Shown: positions 46,042-54,417, numbered from the stretch's first letter. The stretch: DNA of 64,000 nt from Thermodesulfobacteriota bacterium (GCA_035559815.1 DATMAT010000008.1:1-64000); one strand, 5' to 3'. The notes: generated from the sequence alone by a model not told the origin. Numbers and translations: made by a program.

Positions 46042-47673
46042 ATGCCGTTCGCCCTGGGCCCCAAGTGCGTGCCTATTCTCTATTCACCTTCAATCCATTC
46101 AAAATTGCTACCCTCTACGACCTATGCTACCCTAAATTTAGTGGATTCAAGGAAACTCTCCCAAAATATCGAGACCGATTCCTTTGACCGGGCTCTTTTC
46201 GAGGAACTGGTAGCCTCTTCCGAAGAACTTAAAAACCTTATCGAAAGCGGTTCTCATCTCCTGCCCAATTTCCGCTCCTTTGTCCTCGACCTTTTTGCCA
46301 GCTTCTTCAAGTACAACGTCTTACTTCATCCGGAGGACGAGGTGAAAAGGGGCGTGTTGATTGGAAGAAAACTCATCGAGAAAGCCGTTGCCAGCGAGGG
46401 TTATAAGGAATTAAGGGAAGAAACTATACTCGACGGTTTCAAGTCCGCGATTGCCACCCTGACCCTGGGTAAAGAGGTTATTAGATGGGTAAAATCCGAG
46501 GAGGGACCTTCACAGAGTTCTCTCGTTAAAGAGTGGGAGCTGGACAAAGCGGAGGAGGATTATGAAGAGTTAAAGGAGGAGGCTAAAACCTGGGAGGATG
46601 TTGAGAAGGAAAATCCCCTCGATAAGTCAGCGGATAAATCATTTAAAGAAGGAAAGAAAAAGGCTCAACTGGAATTGCGAAAGCAGGAGGGTGAGCTAAA
46701 GGAGCTTCAGGAGGAGCAAAAGAAGAGACTGGAAAATATGGAGATGAAACTCCAGAAACTTACTAAGTCGGCGTTACAGCAGGCTTCGGAAGGTGTAGAC
46801 GAAGCAGAAAGCGAGCTTATGGAATGGGGAGCCTCGATGGGAATACCTCAGGAGAAAACAGCCGGAGAAAAACTTGACCTGGCCGCCAAGTTGCTCAAGA
46901 ACGAAAAATTGAGAAAGCTCTCTCTCATGGTCGGGAGCCTCAAAGAAGAGATGTTGACATCCAGGAGAAAGCTCTGGTCGAAAAGGGGAACAGAGGTTTA
47001 TGACATTGCCATCGGAGACGACATAGGAAGGGTCATTCCCAGCGAGCTTTCTTTCTTGAAACACCGGGTTTTAAGAAGGGATTTTATGAGAAGGTTTCTT
47101 GAAGAGAAGCTCCTTCAGTACTACCTCAGGGAAGAAAGGGGAAGAGGCCCGCTCATCGTCTGTATCGACGGCAGCTCCTCTATGGACGGAAACAAAGAGG
47201 TGTGGTCGAAAGGTGTTTGTTTAACCTTACTGGATATTGCAAAAAGGCAGAGAAGAAAGTTCGTCGTAATTGTGTTTTCTTCAAAAGGCTCGCCTCTCAA
47301 GATTTTCGGCTCCGACGTCAAGGAGGGTTGGGGAATGAAAGAGAATGACATCATCGAGCTAGCCGATTACTTCCCCGGCGGGGGGACGGACTTTGAAGAC
47401 CCGCTGGATAAAGCCCTGGAGTTCCTCAATCAGTCAAAATTCAAGAGGGGCGACATCGTTTTCATAACCGACGGTGAATGTGATGTAAGAGGTGATTGGT
47501 TGGAGACGTTTCTCGGAGAAAAGAAAAGGCTCGACTTTCAAGTGCTTTCGATCCTCATAGACCTGACCGGCCGGGAGTCGCAAGAGTCTCTCAAGAAATT
47601 CAGCGATAAAATAACCGCGATATCGAAGCTAACTTCTAAAGATGCCCGGGATATTTTCTTAAGCTTGGCCTAA
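46042..47673 (+). CDS. VWA-domain protein (ViaA/CoxE-like)
   Basis: Up to 543 residues; the true start is uncertain (ATG 46042, TTG 46105 or GTG 46141), none with a clear ribosome site. The N-terminal and middle parts are helical and highly charged, with a coiled-coil stretch (KKKAQLELRKQEGELKELQE). The C-terminal von Willebrand A domain has the MIDAS motif DGSSSMDG, the second Thr in FPGGGTDFEDPL and ITDGECD. Architecture resembles ViaA, which partners a MoxR-type AAA+ ATPase (RavA), but no such ATPase is in the window. A decayed copy of its 5' part lies at 39237-39356. Confidence 0.82.
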   Translation: MPFALGPKCVPILYSPSIHSKLLPSTTYATLNLVDSRKLSQNIETDSFDRALFEELVASSEELKNLIESGSHLLPNFRSFVLDLFASFFKYNVLLHPEDEVKRGVLIGRKLIEKAVASEGYKELREETILDGFKSAIATLTLGKEVIRWVKSEEGPSQSSLVKEWELDKAEEDYEELKEEAKTWEDVEKENPLDKSADKSFKEGKKKAQLELRKQEGELKELQEEQKKRLENMEMKLQKLTKSALQQASEGVDEAESELMEWGASMGIPQEKTAGEKLDLAAKLLKNEKLRKLSLMVGSLKEEMLTSRRKLWSKRGTEVYDIAIGDDIGRVIPSELSFLKHRVLRRDFMRRFLEEKLLQYYLREERGRGPLIVCIDGSSSMDGNKEVWSKGVCLTLLDIAKRQRRKFVVIVFSSKGSPLKIFGSDVKEGWGMKENDIIELADYFPGGGTDFEDPLDKALEFLNQSKFKRGDIVFITDGECDVRGDWLETFLGEKKRLDFQVLSILIDLTGRESQESLKKFSDKITAISKLTSKDARDIFLSLA

Positions 47674-47718: not shown

Positions 47719-48807
47719 ATGAGACCCACCTGGGCAGAAATAGATATCGATGCCTTAAAGTCCAATTTTCTCCAAGTTAAAAGAATAGTGGGCGAGAATG
47801 TCGGGGTTATGTCCATCGTAAAGGCCGATGCCTACGGGCACGGGTCGGTTGAGGTCAGCTTGGCTTTAATTGAATCCGGCTCCGATATGCTCGGGGTGGC
47901 GACGGTGGAAGAGGCCGTTGAGCTAAGAGAGTCCGGCATAAAGTCTCCCATTATTTTACTCGGTGGGGTTCAGCCCTATGAAGCAGAACGGGTGGTCAAA
48001 TACGATTTAACCCCCTCCTTGTTCTCCATTCCCACAGCAAGAGCCATAGATGAATACGCTTATAAAGTAGGGAAGAGGGTGAAGTATCATCTTAAGGTGG
48101 ATACCGGGATGAGCAGGCTCGGCGCCGGGGTTGAGGAAATTCCTCATTTCCTGAGCGAGCTTAGGGGCTTGAACAACCTGGAGATGGAAGGTGTGTTCAC
48201 CCACTTTGCCAATGCGGATAAGGAGGTCGGGGATTTTACGCTAAAACAGATTGCAGTTTTCAGGAATATGCTTTCATTCATCATCCAAGCGGGTTTTTGC
48301 CCGAAATATACGCACTTGGCCAATAGCGCCGGAATCCAAGCTTATCCCCAATCCCACATGAATCTGGTCCGTCCGGGAATAATGCTATACGGTTCCGGGA
48401 AGATAAGCGATTGCGAACTTAAGCCGGCTATGAGGCTTAAAACACAAATAATTCAACTGAAGAGTGTTCCGGCGGGAACCCCGGTTAGCTACGGGGGCAC
48501 TTTCGTGACGGCGAGGCCTGCTGTCATAGCCACACTCCCCGTAGGGTATGCCGATGGGTACATGAGGAGGCTTTCCAATCGGGCCAGGGTTTCAATCAAT
48601 GGCTTCACTGCCCCGGTTGTGGGTACGGTGTGCATGGATTTAATAATGGTTGATGTTACCGAGGTTCCGGGGGTAGAGGTTGGGGGCGATGTAGTTCTAT
48701 TTGGAGATGAAAGGGTTTCGGTCGAAGACGTTGCCAAATGGGCAGATACCATCTCCTACGAGGTCCTCTCCATAACCGGAAAGAGAGTACCTCGTGTTTA
48801 TGTCTGA
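47719..48807 (+). CDS. alr: Alanine racemase
   Basis: 362 residues. PLP enzyme making D-alanine for peptidoglycan. The PLP-lysine motif is VKADAYGHGSVEV. Other blocks are VDTGMSRLGA, HLANSAG, NLVRPGIMLYG, the catalytic Tyr region PVSYGGTF, and VGTVCMDLIMVDVT. Normal length. Confidence 0.96.
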   Translation: MRPTWAEIDIDALKSNFLQVKRIVGENVGVMSIVKADAYGHGSVEVSLALIESGSDMLGVATVEEAVELRESGIKSPIILLGGVQPYEAERVVKYDLTPSLFSIPTARAIDEYAYKVGKRVKYHLKVDTGMSRLGAGVEEIPHFLSELRGLNNLEMEGVFTHFANADKEVGDFTLKQIAVFRNMLSFIIQAGFCPKYTHLANSAGIQAYPQSHMNLVRPGIMLYGSGKISDCELKPAMRLKTQIIQLKSVPAGTPVSYGGTFVTARPAVIATLPVGYADGYMRRLSNRARVSINGFTAPVVGTVCMDLIMVDVTEVPGVEVGGDVVLFGDERVSVEDVAKWADTISYEVLSITGKRVPRVYV

Positions 48808-48883: not shown

Positions 48884-50383
48884 ATGCTCAAGACCTCTCC
48901 AATATCTATTGGTTTTTTTCTAATCACCGTCTTCTTTTTTTTGCTCTATAGCCCGGCTATTTCATCCGGAAGAGATGATTTTAGTCTTGGGCCGCTTTTG
49001 AATATTGAAGAAGACGAGTCTCAGGAATCACAAGAAGTAGACCTCCTCGGCCCTTTCATAACCTCAAAAAGGGACAAGGACAGCTCTGAATTCGGCTTAC
49101 GCCCGCTTTTCTATCTTCTTAGAGACAGCGAAAAGGATTCCACCGAGTTTGATTTTCTTTATCCGGTTGCAACCTACGATAGAAGGGAGGGGGACTGGGA
49201 TTTTCAATTTCTCCTCTATTTACTCTCGTATGAATCCGAGAAAAAGCCGAGCGGTTTCCGGGAGACTGAATTTACCCTCTTCCCCCTTATCTTCAGCAAG
49301 AGGGCAGAGGATAGGGATAAGAGCTACTTTGCTCTCTTCCCCATCTATGGAGGGTTAAAGGATAAGTTTGGCCGGGATGAGATTAACTTTTTTCTATTTC
49401 CACTCTTTTTACAAACTAAGAAGGGAGAATTCACCAATAACAGTTTCCTCTGGCCCATATTCGGCTATTACACCGGAGGAGGTCAAGAGGGCTTCAGGCT
49501 CTGGCCCCTTTTTGGATACAGAAAAAGAGAAGGAACGCTTGATGAGAAATTTGCACTCTGGCCTATTTACGTATCGAAAAGGTGGGAGTTCTTTGGAGAG
49601 GAAAGAAGGTCGTTCATGATCTTTCCCTTTTACTCTACCCTGGAGTCCCCGGAGAGAACACAGAGCACTTATCTGTGGCCCCTGTTTAACCGCCTGGTGG
49701 ACGGGGAAAAGGAGATTGAGAGATGGGATACCCCCTGGCCCCTCATCAATTTCACCAGGGGGAAGAAAACCGGGAATAGGGTTTTCCCATTTTATGCCAG
49801 CGAGGAAGACAAGAATAGTGAGGAAGGATTCTTTCTCTGGCCGCTCTACCGATACAGTAACCTGACCCTTGAAGACCACGTGAGAAAGAGAAAGACATTT
49901 CTCCTCTTTCTCTACTCGGATATAAAGGAAGAGCCGACTATGGATGGCGGAAGGGAGGGAAGAAGAATAGATTTCTGGCCGTTATTCAGCTACAAGAGAG
50001 ACGAGAAAGGAAACCGTAGTTTTCACTTCCTTTCACTCCTCGAGCCTTTTTTCTCCAACAACAAGGGCATCGAAAGAAACTATGCTCCGTTATGGAGACT
50101 ATTCGAATGGAATAAATACGAGGACGGCAGGAGCGTTTCATCTTTTCTGTGGAATACTTATAGGATGGAAAAGAGTAAGGATATGACCAAGGTTGACCTG
50201 CGGCCGATAATTCCCATCTTCTCTTATGTAGACTCGGAGGAGAAGTCAAAATTTTATTTTTTAGGCGGTCTTTTCGGCTATAAATCAGACCAACGAAAAA
50301 AAACATTCAAACTATTTTTCATTCCCATTAATATTTCTAAAGATGAGGTGAAAGAAGAGGAGGGAGGATTAAAAAATGAATAG
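48884..50383 (+). CDS. 'LWPLF/LFPLF'-repeat protein, first gene of the Mla operon
   Basis: 499 residues with a signal peptide or anchor (SIGFFLITVFFFLLYSPAISS). The body is about 15 repeats of roughly 25-30 residues, each with an aromatic-Pro core (LGPLL, LRPLFY, LFPLIF, LFPIYG, LFPLFL, LWPIFGY, LWPLFGY, LWPIYV, LWPLFN and so on), separated by charged loops. This looks like a repeated beta-strand or beta-hairpin structure, barrel- or solenoid-like, in the envelope. The stop overlaps the mlaE start by eight bases, so it is translationally coupled to the lipid transporter. A plausible outer-membrane or periplasmic partner; no family function known. Confidence 0.75.
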   Translation: MLKTSPISIGFFLITVFFFLLYSPAISSGRDDFSLGPLLNIEEDESQESQEVDLLGPFITSKRDKDSSEFGLRPLFYLLRDSEKDSTEFDFLYPVATYDRREGDWDFQFLLYLLSYESEKKPSGFRETEFTLFPLIFSKRAEDRDKSYFALFPIYGGLKDKFGRDEINFFLFPLFLQTKKGEFTNNSFLWPIFGYYTGGGQEGFRLWPLFGYRKREGTLDEKFALWPIYVSKRWEFFGEERRSFMIFPFYSTLESPERTQSTYLWPLFNRLVDGEKEIERWDTPWPLINFTRGKKTGNRVFPFYASEEDKNSEEGFFLWPLYRYSNLTLEDHVRKRKTFLLFLYSDIKEEPTMDGGREGRRIDFWPLFSYKRDEKGNRSFHFLSLLEPFFSNNKGIERNYAPLWRLFEWNKYEDGRSVSSFLWNTYRMEKSKDMTKVDLRPIIPIFSYVDSEEKSKFYFLGGLFGYKSDQRKKTFKLFFIPINISKDEVKEEEGGLKNE

Positions 50384-51143
50384 CGTGAACGCATTTTTTC
50401 AAACAACCGGGGAGATCCTTGGGCTTCTAGTAGAGAGCATATACTGGTGCAAGACCGCTATCCGCAATCGAGATAAGGTGTTCAGACAGATGGTGGAAAT
50501 CGGGAATAATACCTTGCCCGTAGCCGCTCTTATTTCGCTATTCATTGGAGGCGTGCTGGCGTTACAATCAGGTCCACAGCTTGCGCAGTTTGGAATCGAG
50601 GAGAATATAGGAGGGATTGTCGGACTCTCTATGGTGAAAGAACTCGGCCCGGTCATGGCATCTATACTCGTCGCCGGACGGGTGGGCTCGGCTATGACTG
50701 CGGAGATAGGCTCAATGAGCGTTTATGAAGAGATAGATGCCCTCAAAACCATGGATATAAACCCGGTAAGGTTTCTGGTCATGCCCAGGTTTCTGGCCAG
50801 CTTCATCGCGCTTCCCTTTCTGGTGATTTACATGGACGTGATAGGATGGTTTGGCGGTGCGGTGGTCTCGTCGGTTAATCCGGATATCCACGTTAGTATG
50901 AGCGTCTATTTTAGGAACCTTTCCGAGCTGGTGGAATTCTCGGACGTGCTCAATGGGTTAGTCAAGGCAATGGTTTTCGGGGTCATAATCTCCATTGTAT
51001 GCTGCTATGTCGGCCTTAAAACAAAGGGAGGGCCTAGAGAGATCGGAACGTCGGTGACAAAAGCGGTAGTATTGTCCTTTATCCTGATTTTGATCTTTGA
51101 TTATTACATCACCAGGCTTTTAATACTACTCAATTTAGATTAG
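50376..51143 (+). CDS. mlaE: MlaE-family lipid ABC transporter permease
   Basis: 255 residues, five to six helices, MlaE/YrbE family. TLPVAALISLFIGGVLALQSGPQLAQFG, VKELGPVMASILVAGRVGSAMTAEIGSMSVYEEIDALKTM and the C-terminal VVLSFILILIFDYYIT. Forms the inner-membrane part of the complex that moves phospholipids between inner and outer membranes. Followed by mlaF after 14 bases. Confidence 0.94.
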   Translation: MNSVNAFFQTTGEILGLLVESIYWCKTAIRNRDKVFRQMVEIGNNTLPVAALISLFIGGVLALQSGPQLAQFGIEENIGGIVGLSMVKELGPVMASILVAGRVGSAMTAEIGSMSVYEEIDALKTMDINPVRFLVMPRFLASFIALPFLVIYMDVIGWFGGAVVSSVNPDIHVSMSVYFRNLSELVEFSDVLNGLVKAMVFGVIISIVCCYVGLKTKGGPREIGTSVTKAVVLSFILILIFDYYITRLLILLNLD

Positions 51144-51157
51144 ACTTTATTCGAATA

Positions 51158-51988
51158 ATGCAAGTAAACACTGAGAATAAAAATCCTAAAGAAGAAAAAT
51201 CTCCGGATACTTTATTTCACCACAACTTAGAAAGTAAACCGGTATCGGTAAAGGTAATAAAACTAAATAAGTCCTTTGGAGACAATCATGTCCTTAGAGA
51301 TTTAAGCCTGGAGATTAAACCGGGTGAAACGCTGGTTATCCTGGGGAAGAGCGGGTCGGGAAAAAGCGTTCTCTTGCGCCATATAATTGGGCTGGAAAAA
51401 CCTGATTCCGGAACGATTTTTATAAACGGAGAGAATATAAACGAGTCAAATTTCAAGAAGAAGCACCGGCTGGCTATGGTATTTCAATCCTCGGCCCTTT
51501 TTAACTCACTTTCGGTCAGGGAAAATGTGGCGCTCTATCTAAAGGAACACGGAGTAGTGAAGGATGAAGACGAGATTACCAGGATAGTAAAAGGTGTACT
51601 TTCCATAGTGGGGCTCGATGAGAAAGAAAATATAATGCCCTCACAGTTAAGCGGCGGGATGAAAAAGAGGGTAGCCATAGCGCGGGCCTTGGCTATGAGT
51701 CCGGAGCTGATTCTTTTTGATGAGCCGACCGCTGAGCTCGACCCAATGATGACTCGAACCATAGGCGATGTAATACTTAATCTAAGAAAATACGTCGAAG
51801 TTACCCAAATAGTGGTCACGCACGATGTTGACCTGGCTTATTACATCGCCGATAGAATAGCGGTGCTGAGCGAAGGAAAGATAGTGGAGACGGGCACTCC
51901 AGAAGATATCAGGAACAGCACCAACCCGGTGGTAAAGGGTTTTATCGACACCCATTTCGAAATGGCAGAAGGAGGTAGAGACAGATGA
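51158..51988 (+). CDS. mlaF: MlaF-family lipid ABC transporter ATPase
   Basis: 276 residues. A ~30-residue charged N-terminal extension, then Walker A LGKSGSGKSVLLR, signature QLSGGMKKRVAIARAL, Walker B LILFDEPTAELDP and switch VVTHDVD. Energises MlaE. Overlaps mlaD by four bases (ATGA). Confidence 0.94.
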   Translation: MQVNTENKNPKEEKSPDTLFHHNLESKPVSVKVIKLNKSFGDNHVLRDLSLEIKPGETLVILGKSGSGKSVLLRHIIGLEKPDSGTIFINGENINESNFKKKHRLAMVFQSSALFNSLSVRENVALYLKEHGVVKDEDEITRIVKGVLSIVGLDEKENIMPSQLSGGMKKRVAIARALAMSPELILFDEPTAELDPMMTRTIGDVILNLRKYVEVTQIVVTHDVDLAYYIADRIAVLSEGKIVETGTPEDIRNSTNPVVKGFIDTHFEMAEGGRDR

Positions 51989-52968
51989 GGACAGAGTTTA
52001 AGGTGGGACTCTTTTTTATCGTGGGCTTATTGATACTACTCGCCGTTTTTGAGTTCATAGGGGAGATCCCGTTCCTGAGGAAGGAATATTCTCTCCGGGC
52101 CTATTTCAAATCTATAGACGAGCTTAAAGAGGGAAATCCGGTAAAGTTTTCCGGTGTTGAAGTAGGGAAGGTCTCTAAGATAAAGATAGGGGATGAGAAG
52201 ATAGAGGTAACTTTCAATGTCAAGAAGGATGTCCCGGTCAAAAAGGACTCGGTTGCCAGCATAAGGCTTACCAGCCTCCTGGGAACAAGTTACATAAACC
52301 TTACCTTCGGCTCTCCGGAAAGCCCTCTTGCCCCTCCGGGAAGCGTGCTTGCCAGCGAAGAACCCGCGGATATAAACGAGATACTGGCCAAAGTACAGTC
52401 CTCTGTGACCTCGATAGAGGCGGCATTCGGTGCATTGGGCGATAATAAAGAAAGAATAAGCAGCATATTGAATGGTCTGGATTCGGTCCTGGGTTCGGCG
52501 GCACGGGGCGAGGGAACTATAGGGAAATTATTGAAAGATGATTCCCTTTATTACGAGGCGAAGGGGGCTCTTTCCAGCATTAATGATGTTGCCGTCTCCA
52601 TAAAAGAGGGAAGAGGCACCCTGGGAAAACTGGTAACGGATGAATCCCTTTATAACGAGACTAAAACAACCATGCAAAACCTGGGTCAACTTGCCAGTAA
52701 GCTGAATAAAGCCGAAGGGACGTTCGGGAAGCTGCTAAACGATGATACCCTTTACGTTCAGGTGTCCGAGGCGGCGACCAACCTTAATTCTATACTGAAG
52801 AAGGTAAACAACGGAGAAGGCACGCTGGGCAAGCTGGTGAGTGACGACTCTCTTTATTTCGACAGTAAGAATGCGGTAAAAAAGCTGGAAAAGTCGGTGG
52901 AAATACAAGAAGACCTAGCACCTCTGAGTACGCTAGGTGCGGCATTCGGAATATTAACCATCTTTTAG
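51985..52968 (+). CDS. mlaD: MlaD-family MCE protein
   Basis: 327 residues. One N-terminal membrane helix (VGLFFIVGLLILLAVFEFIG), an MCE domain (YFKSIDELKEGNPVKFSGVEVGKV, RLTSLLGTSYINLTFG), then an unusual C-terminal tail. The tail has four copies of a G-x-G-T-x-G-K-L-x-x-D-x-S-L-Y unit spaced about 45 residues apart (GEGTIGKLLKDDSLY, GRGTLGKLVTDESLY, AEGTFGKLLNDDTLY, GEGTLGKLVSDDSLY). MCE hexamers form the lipid-carrying ring on MlaFE. The repeat tail is seen in other MCE proteins and may extend the channel. Abuts the ParB-like gene with no gap. Confidence 0.93.
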   Translation: MRTEFKVGLFFIVGLLILLAVFEFIGEIPFLRKEYSLRAYFKSIDELKEGNPVKFSGVEVGKVSKIKIGDEKIEVTFNVKKDVPVKKDSVASIRLTSLLGTSYINLTFGSPESPLAPPGSVLASEEPADINEILAKVQSSVTSIEAAFGALGDNKERISSILNGLDSVLGSAARGEGTIGKLLKDDSLYYEAKGALSSINDVAVSIKEGRGTLGKLVTDESLYNETKTTMQNLGQLASKLNKAEGTFGKLLNDDTLYVQVSEAATNLNSILKKVNNGEGTLGKLVSDDSLYFDSKNAVKKLEKSVEIQEDLAPLSTLGAAFGILTIF

Positions 52969-53934
52969 ATGAAATTTGAGTATGTACCTTTAGCCTTAGT
53001 AGACTTCCAAAACCACTCGTTCTTCGTAGGTCCGGAAAGGGATATCGGCTCACTCGAGGATTCCATCAAAGAGGTCGGACTTATAAACCCTCCGGTTTTG
53101 AGGAGGACGGGGGATAAATATCAAATAATCTCTGGTCGAAGAAGACTCGAAGCCTGTAAAGAGCTTGGATTTAGCCGGGTTTTCTCGAAGACTTATGAGA
53201 CTCACGAAATCTCCGATGAGGACTGCCTGAAGCTGGTATTATACGACAATCAAGAAAGGATAGGTGAATTAGAGAAGGCTGAGCTTCTCCTCAAGTTCAG
53301 GGATATCTGCGGCCTGGATGAAATGGAGCTTACCAAAAGGGTGCTTCCGTATCTGGGGATACCTCCTGCCCGGAGGAGTATTGAAAAATATGTACGCTTG
53401 GGCAAACTGGAGCATGAAATTAAGGACGGCATTTACTCTCAGCGAATTACCCTAGAACAAGCTTTGATATTGAGCGAAACAGCGGGTGCTAATCGAATGG
53501 AGATATTCAGAAGGGTGCTTCTAAGGATGAGGCTCAATACCAATGAAACTCGCGATGTAGTCAAAGAAATTCAGGAGGTGGCATCGAGGGATAAGAGAGG
53601 TGTGGGAAAAATAATAGATGAAATAGAGTCGAAGTGTGGGGGAGGAGAATTAAAAAATGCCTTTAGACGTGAACTCAAGCTGATGCGATATCCGGTGCTG
53701 ACCCAGGCCGAGGAGGAGTTTCGAGACTGCTTAATGGGTCTTGACCTGCCCAAGGAGGTAAATGTTTTCCACGCTCCCTTTTTTGAGGGAAATCACCTTG
53801 AGTTCAGGATTAGAGTGGAGAGCGTAGAGAAATTATCTAGAGTCCTTTCTTATCTTTCTTCAGCACTGGCAAAGGGAGAGATAGATAGGTTGTTGACTAT
53901 TGTAAGAGAAGGTAGCCCTGGCAAGACGGCGTGA
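52969..53934 (+). CDS. ParB-like nuclease-domain protein at the end of the Mla operon
   Basis: 321 residues. N-terminal ParB/Srx-like domain: IGSLEDSIKEVGLINPPVLRR, YQIISGRRRLEACKELG (box II). A helix-turn-helix-like middle follows (ITLEQALILSETAGANRMEIFRRVL) with a C-terminal domain unlike chromosomal ParB. Its ATG follows the mlaD stop directly, so it is part of the lipid transport operon. No parA is adjacent. Could be a transcription factor or a CTP-binding regulator; role unknown. Confidence 0.82.
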   Translation: MKFEYVPLALVDFQNHSFFVGPERDIGSLEDSIKEVGLINPPVLRRTGDKYQIISGRRRLEACKELGFSRVFSKTYETHEISDEDCLKLVLYDNQERIGELEKAELLLKFRDICGLDEMELTKRVLPYLGIPPARRSIEKYVRLGKLEHEIKDGIYSQRITLEQALILSETAGANRMEIFRRVLLRMRLNTNETRDVVKEIQEVASRDKRGVGKIIDEIESKCGGGELKNAFRRELKLMRYPVLTQAEEEFRDCLMGLDLPKEVNVFHAPFFEGNHLEFRIRVESVEKLSRVLSYLSSALAKGEIDRLLTIVREGSPGKTA

Positions 53935-53984: not shown

Positions 53985-54302
53985 TTATCTTCTTCCGATG
54001 CTCCTTAAGTATTCATCGAGGTCATAGGGTGGCTGCCAGTTTTCATCTACATAGACTATCAATTCTTGCCCCGGATAGATTCGGTTCTGGTTGTTAATTA
54101 CATCTGAATTCCATACATAGATTTTGCCCCATTCTCTGGCATTGAGAAGATAATAGCCCGCCAGGAGATGCAGTTCCTCCCCTTTGCCTACTTTGTGCAC
54201 GATTATACGTTTGCCGGTTTCGGGCGCCATCTCCGCTCTAGAGTAAGGCGAAACGAACACTAAAAGCGAGAGTATAAACAGGGTTATTTTTAGAAGCCTC
54301 AT
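53985..54302 (-). CDS. Exported LysM-domain protein
   Basis: 105 residues from the ATG at 54302 (GGGAGG upstream; Met at 54320 is less likely). Signal peptide MRLLKITLFILSLLVFVSPYSRA, then a single LysM domain (HKVGKGEELHLLAGYYLLNAREWGKIYVWNSDVINNQNRIYPGQELIVY). Binds glycan strands such as peptidoglycan. Converges on the ParB-like gene. Confidence 0.85.
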   Translation of the reverse strand: MRLLKITLFILSLLVFVSPYSRAEMAPETGKRIIVHKVGKGEELHLLAGYYLLNAREWGKIYVWNSDVINNQNRIYPGQELIVYVDENWQPPYDLDEYLRSIGRR

Positions 54303-54417
54303 CGGATTGATTCCTCCCATCCTCTTTTTAGAATGTCCTTAATTTTACTCCCTTTTTAGACATTGGTAAATCGCCTGTTGATAGGAGTTGATTTTTCCAT
54401 ATTGATAGTGAAAATAG

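Follow-up and report, generated by a model that had tools for sequence, protein, structure and literature searches.

How does the MlaEFD core of a lipid transporter reach the outer membrane? Comparative work describes MlaEFD as the ancestral core and MlaABC as late additions that are rare outside Proteobacteria; in many phyla, long MlaDs carry barrels that extend to the outer membrane, but PVC and FCB bacteria lack such barrels (PMC10665443). An exported partner of an MCE protein has a precedent in the lipoprotein PqiC (PMC10897342, PMC12436622). Here we analysed a stretch of 64,000 nucleotides (the window) from a Candidatus Dadabacteria genome of 3.97 Mb in 79 contigs, which carries on contig C8 an operon in which mlaEFD is preceded by an exported 'LWPLF' repeat protein, named REP in the following. 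Our main finding concerns REP itself, an undescribed, cross-phylum, exported partner that appears to mark a distinct MlaEFD subtype. The ParB-like protein encoded at the end of the operon is the lesser lead: a ParB paralogue, linked to a lipid operon, that probably binds CTP and is poor at hydrolysing it.

The sequence-only reading had described five tightly coupled genes at 48884-53934, and the open reading frames lie at exactly these positions, all on the forward strand. The gene for REP (499 residues; 48884..50383), identified by its frame, its repeats and its homologues, overlaps mlaE (50376..51143) by 8 bases; after a gap of 14 bases follows mlaF (51158..51988), which overlaps mlaD (51985..52968) by 4 bases, and mlaD abuts exactly on the ParB-like gene (52969..53934). 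Judging from its domains, the cluster is predicted to be an MlaEFD-type MCE ABC transporter, with lipid transport as the likely function: MlaE matches PF02405 (1.1e-78) and TIGR00056 (241.9 bits, cut-off 212), MlaF, encoded next to the permease gene, matches ABC_tran (PF00005, 1.9e-36), and MlaD, which has the hydrophobic N-terminus of a membrane-anchored protein, matches PF02470 over residues 34-109 (1.4e-20), with TIGR00996 below its cut-off. Alanine racemase (alr, 47719..48807, +, assigned by Pfam) lies directly 5' of rep in every Dadabacteria locus with enough contig, and also in the record L111; though a conserved upstream neighbour, it is not necessarily part of the transporter system. 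Further out, a VWA-domain protein upstream of alr (46042-47673) is kept in the window's family and in one other, and a small exported LysM-like protein (53985-54320, minus strand), convergent with the operon, is kept in some relatives and was not seen in others.

As had been noted from the sequence, mlaB and mlaC are missing from the operon. The accompanying statement that new genes stand in their place was too loose, however: given the rarity of MlaABC outside Proteobacteria (PMC10665443), mlaB and mlaC were probably never there. MlaC (PF05494) and MlaA (PF04333) were each found in none of the 21 Dadabacteria genomes searched, the window genome included, with E. coli and Caulobacter as positive controls, so that none of these 21 genomes encodes the MlaA and MlaC of a canonical Mla system. 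The LptD domain (PF04453) was detected in the same two controls and in none of 58 Dadabacteria genomes; LPS export in this group may be missing or very divergent. With no LptD domain found in the 58 genomes, the transported lipid may not concern LPS asymmetry, and both the lipid and the purpose of its transport may be other than in the Mla system of E. coli.

What kind of protein is REP? Its N-terminus is signal-peptide-like (approximately residues 1-27, 48884..48964, +, with a helix at 6-21 in the predicted model) and a hydrophobic leader recurs in nearly all homologues, marking REP as an exported protein. Nearly all Dadabacteria copies have simple signal peptides, and they carry no outer-membrane marker. 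In 22 of 36 Planctomycetota copies a lipobox stands just before the conserved domain, and REP is probably a lipoprotein in most members of this phylum; a lipobox alone does not tell which membrane is meant. The repeat region spans residues ~53-370 (49040..49993, +), where 15 proline-anchored repeats of about 19 residues fit the single logo F-x-L-[WF]-P-[LFI]-[FY]-x-Y-[KR]-[KR], with the core L-[WF]-P-[LFI]-[FY]; hydrophobic positions surround the proline, and the others are charged. Eleven of the anchor prolines (residues 57, 74, 94, 134, 153, 173, 191, 208, 227, 248, 266, 286, 302, 320 and 366) are invariant or nearly so across phyla. REP contains 12 [WF]P[LIFVHM] motifs, where 1.2 are expected and 2,000 shuffles gave at most 6, spaced by 16-21 residues apart from a single interval of 46. 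The exported protein of about 15 aromatic-proline repeats that the sequence-only reading had proposed is thus borne out, and a random or low-complexity repeat is ruled out by the shuffles together with the cross-phylum conservation.

We found no described family to which REP could be assigned: Pfam and NCBIfam gave nothing above cut-off, the PDB no sequence match, and the literature on the REP motif, Dadabacteria envelopes and PVC MCE operons only one directly relevant report (PMC10665443). A single one of 30 REP homologues matched NF047486, the NCBIfam family of the Leptospira LA_1737 C-terminus, weakly (E 0.005), making a link to spirochaete proteins possible. No REP was found on plasmids. 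Very long WP-repeat proteins, with open frames of ~1,000-1,700 residues, occur in Planctomycetota (L178; G084:C318, G094:C76, G146:C702); the one such locus that was read, L178, does not adjoin mlaEFD.

The case for REP as a transporter component is built on its genomic context. Among 58 Dadabacteria genomes 39 contain REP, and mlaE follows directly 3' in all 36 loci on contigs long enough to tell. The remaining 19 genomes include 14 from one genus with a single MlaE; in G011, the one genome examined, this MlaE is of a different type and adjoins a small gene of lipoprotein-like character. Families f5 and f8, whose genomes are small, have no MlaE other than the REP-linked one. The nearest named relatives by REP are MAGs labelled Deltaproteobacteria bacterium (NC_groundwater_453) and Candidatus Dadabacteria (e.g. 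CSP1-2). A pattern scan of GTDB contigs extended the range to records from Planctomycetota, Verrucomicrobia, Kiritimatiellae, Lentisphaerae, Poribacteria and Sumerlaeota, with REP nearly always directly 5' of mlaE-mlaF-mlaD; as exceptions, mlaF stands in front in Poribacteria and the Sumerlaeota record lacks an adjacent mlaE. In even samples of 119 Planctomycetota and 96 Verrucomicrobiota genomes, strong REP matches were obtained in 57 and 43, respectively, with mlaE directly 3' on the same strand in 53 (29 by coordinates, 24 by reading the loci) and 39 cases; taken together, 92 of these 100 PVC matches adjoin mlaE and 8 do not. The sequence-only reading had named the absence of its proposed partners from nearly all related mla operons as the outcome that would speak against them; the linkage in 36/36 and 92/100 loci is the reverse of this for REP, and the repeat protein stands as a partner of mlaEFD. 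Distances between REP proteins correlate with those between their MlaE (r 0.83) and MlaD (r 0.85) neighbours as closely as MlaE and MlaD distances do with each other (r 0.85), which indicates co-inheritance, not contact. We therefore regard REP as very probably a dedicated component of the transporter, bearing in mind that the linkage is synteny and no proof of contact.

Two features of the neighbouring proteins follow the distribution of REP. In a FastTree phylogeny of 103 MlaE proteins, 77 REP-linked and 26 unlinked, 76 of the 77 linked proteins fall on one side of a branch with a support of 0.9 and none of the 26 unlinked ones does, so that the REP-linked MlaE proteins, among them that of the window, form a clade of their own. 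The second feature is found in MlaD. In the window this protein has 327 residues, with a single MCE domain and an elongated helical region of GTLGKL-type repeats, which run on to a 17-residue hydrophobic tail, LAPLSTLGAAFGILTIF (52915..52965, +), and would leave little room for a barrel domain. The tail is conserved in REP-linked MlaDs, typically as ..(R/Q)E..AP(I/V/L).(T/S)(F/L)......F, and a simple rule detects it in 65 of 77 linked and 0 of 21 unlinked proteins (Fisher p = 3e-13, a value that overstates independence, as the unlinked set, mostly paralogues from the same genomes, is small and hand-picked and the sequences are related). The partner MlaD thus appears as an elongated protein, set apart from paralogous MlaDs by its conserved hydrophobic tail. 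The best reading of the cluster is a distinct MlaEFD (MCE) subtype, marked by REP, the MlaE clade and the MlaD tail, of which REP is the first gene in Dadabacteria and PVC bacteria, as far as gene content and sequence can tell.

Other MCE systems exist beside this subtype. A second MCE operon of the window genome (L144:4604-8202) encodes a long MlaE (387 residues), MlaF, MlaD and a lipoprotein with a weak likeness to ABC_trans_aux (PF03886); this operon resembles Mpc/Pqi-type systems. A third type of MlaE in Dadabacteria (L143:6186-7571, L145:5428-6803, L146:4576-5941) adjoins a lipoprotein-like gene of ~200 residues, with neither mlaF nor mlaD adjacent, and is the only MlaE in the one examined genome of genus g11.

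What can be discerned from the predicted structure of REP? Modelling of REP alone, which had been proposed as a check, gave a many-stranded fold (AlphaFold2, single chain, 31 homologues; pLDDT 85, pTM 0.66) with 45 strands of 4-8, mostly 5-6, residues and W/F-P-L turns between them. REP is accordingly predicted to be sheet-like and elongated: 15 tight L-W/F-P turns would connect about 45 short strands and, owing to these turns, one edge would present an aromatic-aliphatic stripe and the remainder would be charged. At the usual strand spacing in a sheet of 0.48 nm the ribbon would be ~20 nm long if all strands stack in one sheet, near the width of the periplasm; this value is arithmetic, not a measurement. 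A Foldseek search with the model returned nothing in PDB or BFVD that matched over the whole chain (query TM <=0.21). Among the weak matches are other sheets of many short strands, such as OspA, TCP10, teneurin and MORN proteins, but for MORN, OspA and TCP10/G-box sheets the likeness is one of analogy only, with a query TM of at most ~0.2 and no sequence similarity.

The model bears directly on whether REP could be an integral outer-membrane beta-barrel, serving as the outer-membrane port of an MlaEFD pump. Membrane-spanning strands of such barrels comprise ~9 or more residues, more than the 4-8 predicted for REP, and a predicted strand architecture dominated by strands of 5-6 residues, with a proline turn every ~19, is unlike that of a transmembrane barrel. 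The charge of the mature protein (~32% of its residues) and the lipoboxes of 22/36 Planctomycetota copies argue in the same direction, and no outer-membrane barrel is among the 50 PDB matches listed for the model. While REP is exported, aromatic-rich and, as predicted, all-beta with many strands, and while MlaD barrels or an MlaA-porin fill that place in other phyla (PMC10665443), a barrel therefore seems very unlikely, and it was dropped as the main reading over the short strands, the proline turns and the lipoboxes.

We lean, by a modest degree of confidence, towards REP being an outer-membrane-side dock or bridge of this MCE/Mla subtype; a bridging or outer-membrane role, as the sequence-only reading had envisaged, is plausible. 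REP would reside in the periplasm on the outer-membrane side, lipid-anchored in most Planctomycetota, and would take up or pass on lipids at the MlaD tube's tip, where the tail of MlaD would act as the docking or membrane-touching end. It would so do the job done elsewhere by MlaA and MlaC, or by a C-terminal barrel of MlaD. Alternatively, REP could act on the side of the inner membrane and have no part to play at the outer one, either by forming a periplasmic sleeve or scaffold around the MlaD hexamer or by collecting substrate. The end-to-end overlap of REP and mlaE in the window would fit such an arrangement, as would the Dadabacteria copies with their simple signal peptides and their lack of an outer-membrane marker. 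However, the feature of MlaD that covaries with REP is its far C-terminal tip, not the MCE ring, and the predicted ribbon is long, making a purely inner-membrane placement rather unlikely. A bolder version of the dock or bridge is that REP represents a new class of trans-periplasmic lipid conduit, employed in PVC bacteria and Dadabacteria instead of MlaA-MlaC or an MlaD barrel: in a long beta ribbon of a single layer, 15 L-W-P-L-F turns stacked on one another would form a hydrophobic track from the MlaD tip to the outer membrane. We put this forward tentatively, as an idea that is doubtful at present. Whichever form it takes, REP is a specific candidate for closing the gap between the MlaEFD core and the outer membrane of PVC bacteria, a candidacy resting on synteny in several phyla, the matching MlaE clade and the matching MlaD tail.

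The last gene of the operon encodes what is, by all indications, a genuine ParB paralogue: it has a ParB_N domain over the cut-off (PF02195, 5.5e-8), an HTH_ParB match just below it (PF17762, 2.3e-4, 21.7 bits against 22.6) and a C-terminal region, and its top PDB matches are Noc and ParB. The canonical hydrolysis motifs are altered. The position of GERR is taken by GRRR (53134..53145, +; G[WYF]KR in relatives) and that of ENLQR by DNQER (53245..53259, +), where DN or EN with the R is kept in most relatives. The binding residues G56, R59 and N94, matching G77, R80 and the ENLQR asparagine of ParB, are invariant, whereas the E78 position of ParB is aromatic in 11 of 12 sequences, with arginine in the window, and an aspartate or a glutamate occupies that of E111. 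The substitutions E78Q and E111Q in ParB of B. subtilis eliminate hydrolysis but still allow closure of the N-gate and entrapment of DNA; PadC, which has phenylalanine in place of E78, binds CTP and does not hydrolyse it (PMC8494293). In this light, the invariant binding residues and the change at E78 make CTP binding plausible and hydrolysis doubtful; the ParB-like protein probably still binds CTP and hydrolyses it poorly. PadC (Myxococcus) and Noc (Bacillus), both ParB-family CTP proteins, share with it the ParB_N fold, and PadC also the aromatic residue found in 11/12 relatives; unlike them, the ParB-like protein retains an HTH-like region along with a DN/EN-x-x-R motif, and its gene lies in an mla operon with no ParA partner seen there.

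Is this gene a working part of the transporter? As a core feature of the operon, the ParB-like gene is not supported by its distribution: of the 58 Dadabacteria genomes 13 have it, in each case immediately 3' of mlaD and mostly 0-4 bases apart, and it lies beside mla in no PVC locus seen. Many relatives, including whole families, have an intact mlaD without it and no copy elsewhere at E<=1e-15, and a degenerate-pattern search of the genome collection for ParB relatives returned nothing. We class the gene as a lineage-specific accessory rather than as part of the core. A clamp switched by CTP, linking the organisation of chromosome or membrane to lipid transport, would suit the strict position behind mlaD in 13/13 Dadabacteria matches, as well as the invariant G56, R59 and N94 and the PadC-like aromatic residue in 11/12 sequences (PMC8494293), but is hard to reconcile with the many intact mlaD genes that lack it, with the missing PVC cases and with the absence of a shared palindrome near ParB-bearing operons; we consider it improbable. 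The operon contains no ParA, and the canonical ParA-ParB pair of the genome is encoded separately, on contig C11. No parS within 3 mismatches was found in the window, a weak negative, as none was found near the canonical parAB either. Somewhat favoured is a mere autoregulator of the operon, or a hitch-hiking paralogue, without bearing on transport, with which the patchy distribution in Dadabacteria and the HTH-like region agree. KorB is an example of a ParB-family protein that acts as a repressor, and 8qa8 and 8qa9 are among the fold matches. Against this, the tight coupling over deep divergence (29-57% identity) points beyond chance linkage, and no conserved operator-like palindrome emerged, none common to the ParB-bearing operons exceeding shuffled controls. 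Its most likely role would be an accessory cytoplasmic one, as a regulator or a DNA/membrane tether, coupled to the expression of the operon.

How, then, does the transporter compare with its described relatives? With the six-component Mla system of E. coli it has the MlaE permease, the MlaF ATPase and the MCE protein MlaD in common; MlaA and MlaC, however, are absent from the tested genomes and mlaB from the operon, and REP is without E. coli counterpart. PqiABC and the Brucella Mpc system (PMC10897342, PMC12436622) have in PqiC an exported MCE partner, as REP may be, but REP gives no match to ABC_trans_aux (PF03886), is ~2.5 times longer and is built of repeats. In the three-component MlaEFD of the Veillonella parvula type (PMC10665443), mlaE, mlaF and a long mlaD form one operon without mlaA, mlaB and mlaC, as they do here; while MlaD of that type has a barrel domain, MlaD of the present operon ends in a short hydrophobic tail and probably has no such domain, and mlaE follows the gene of a separate, exported repeat protein.
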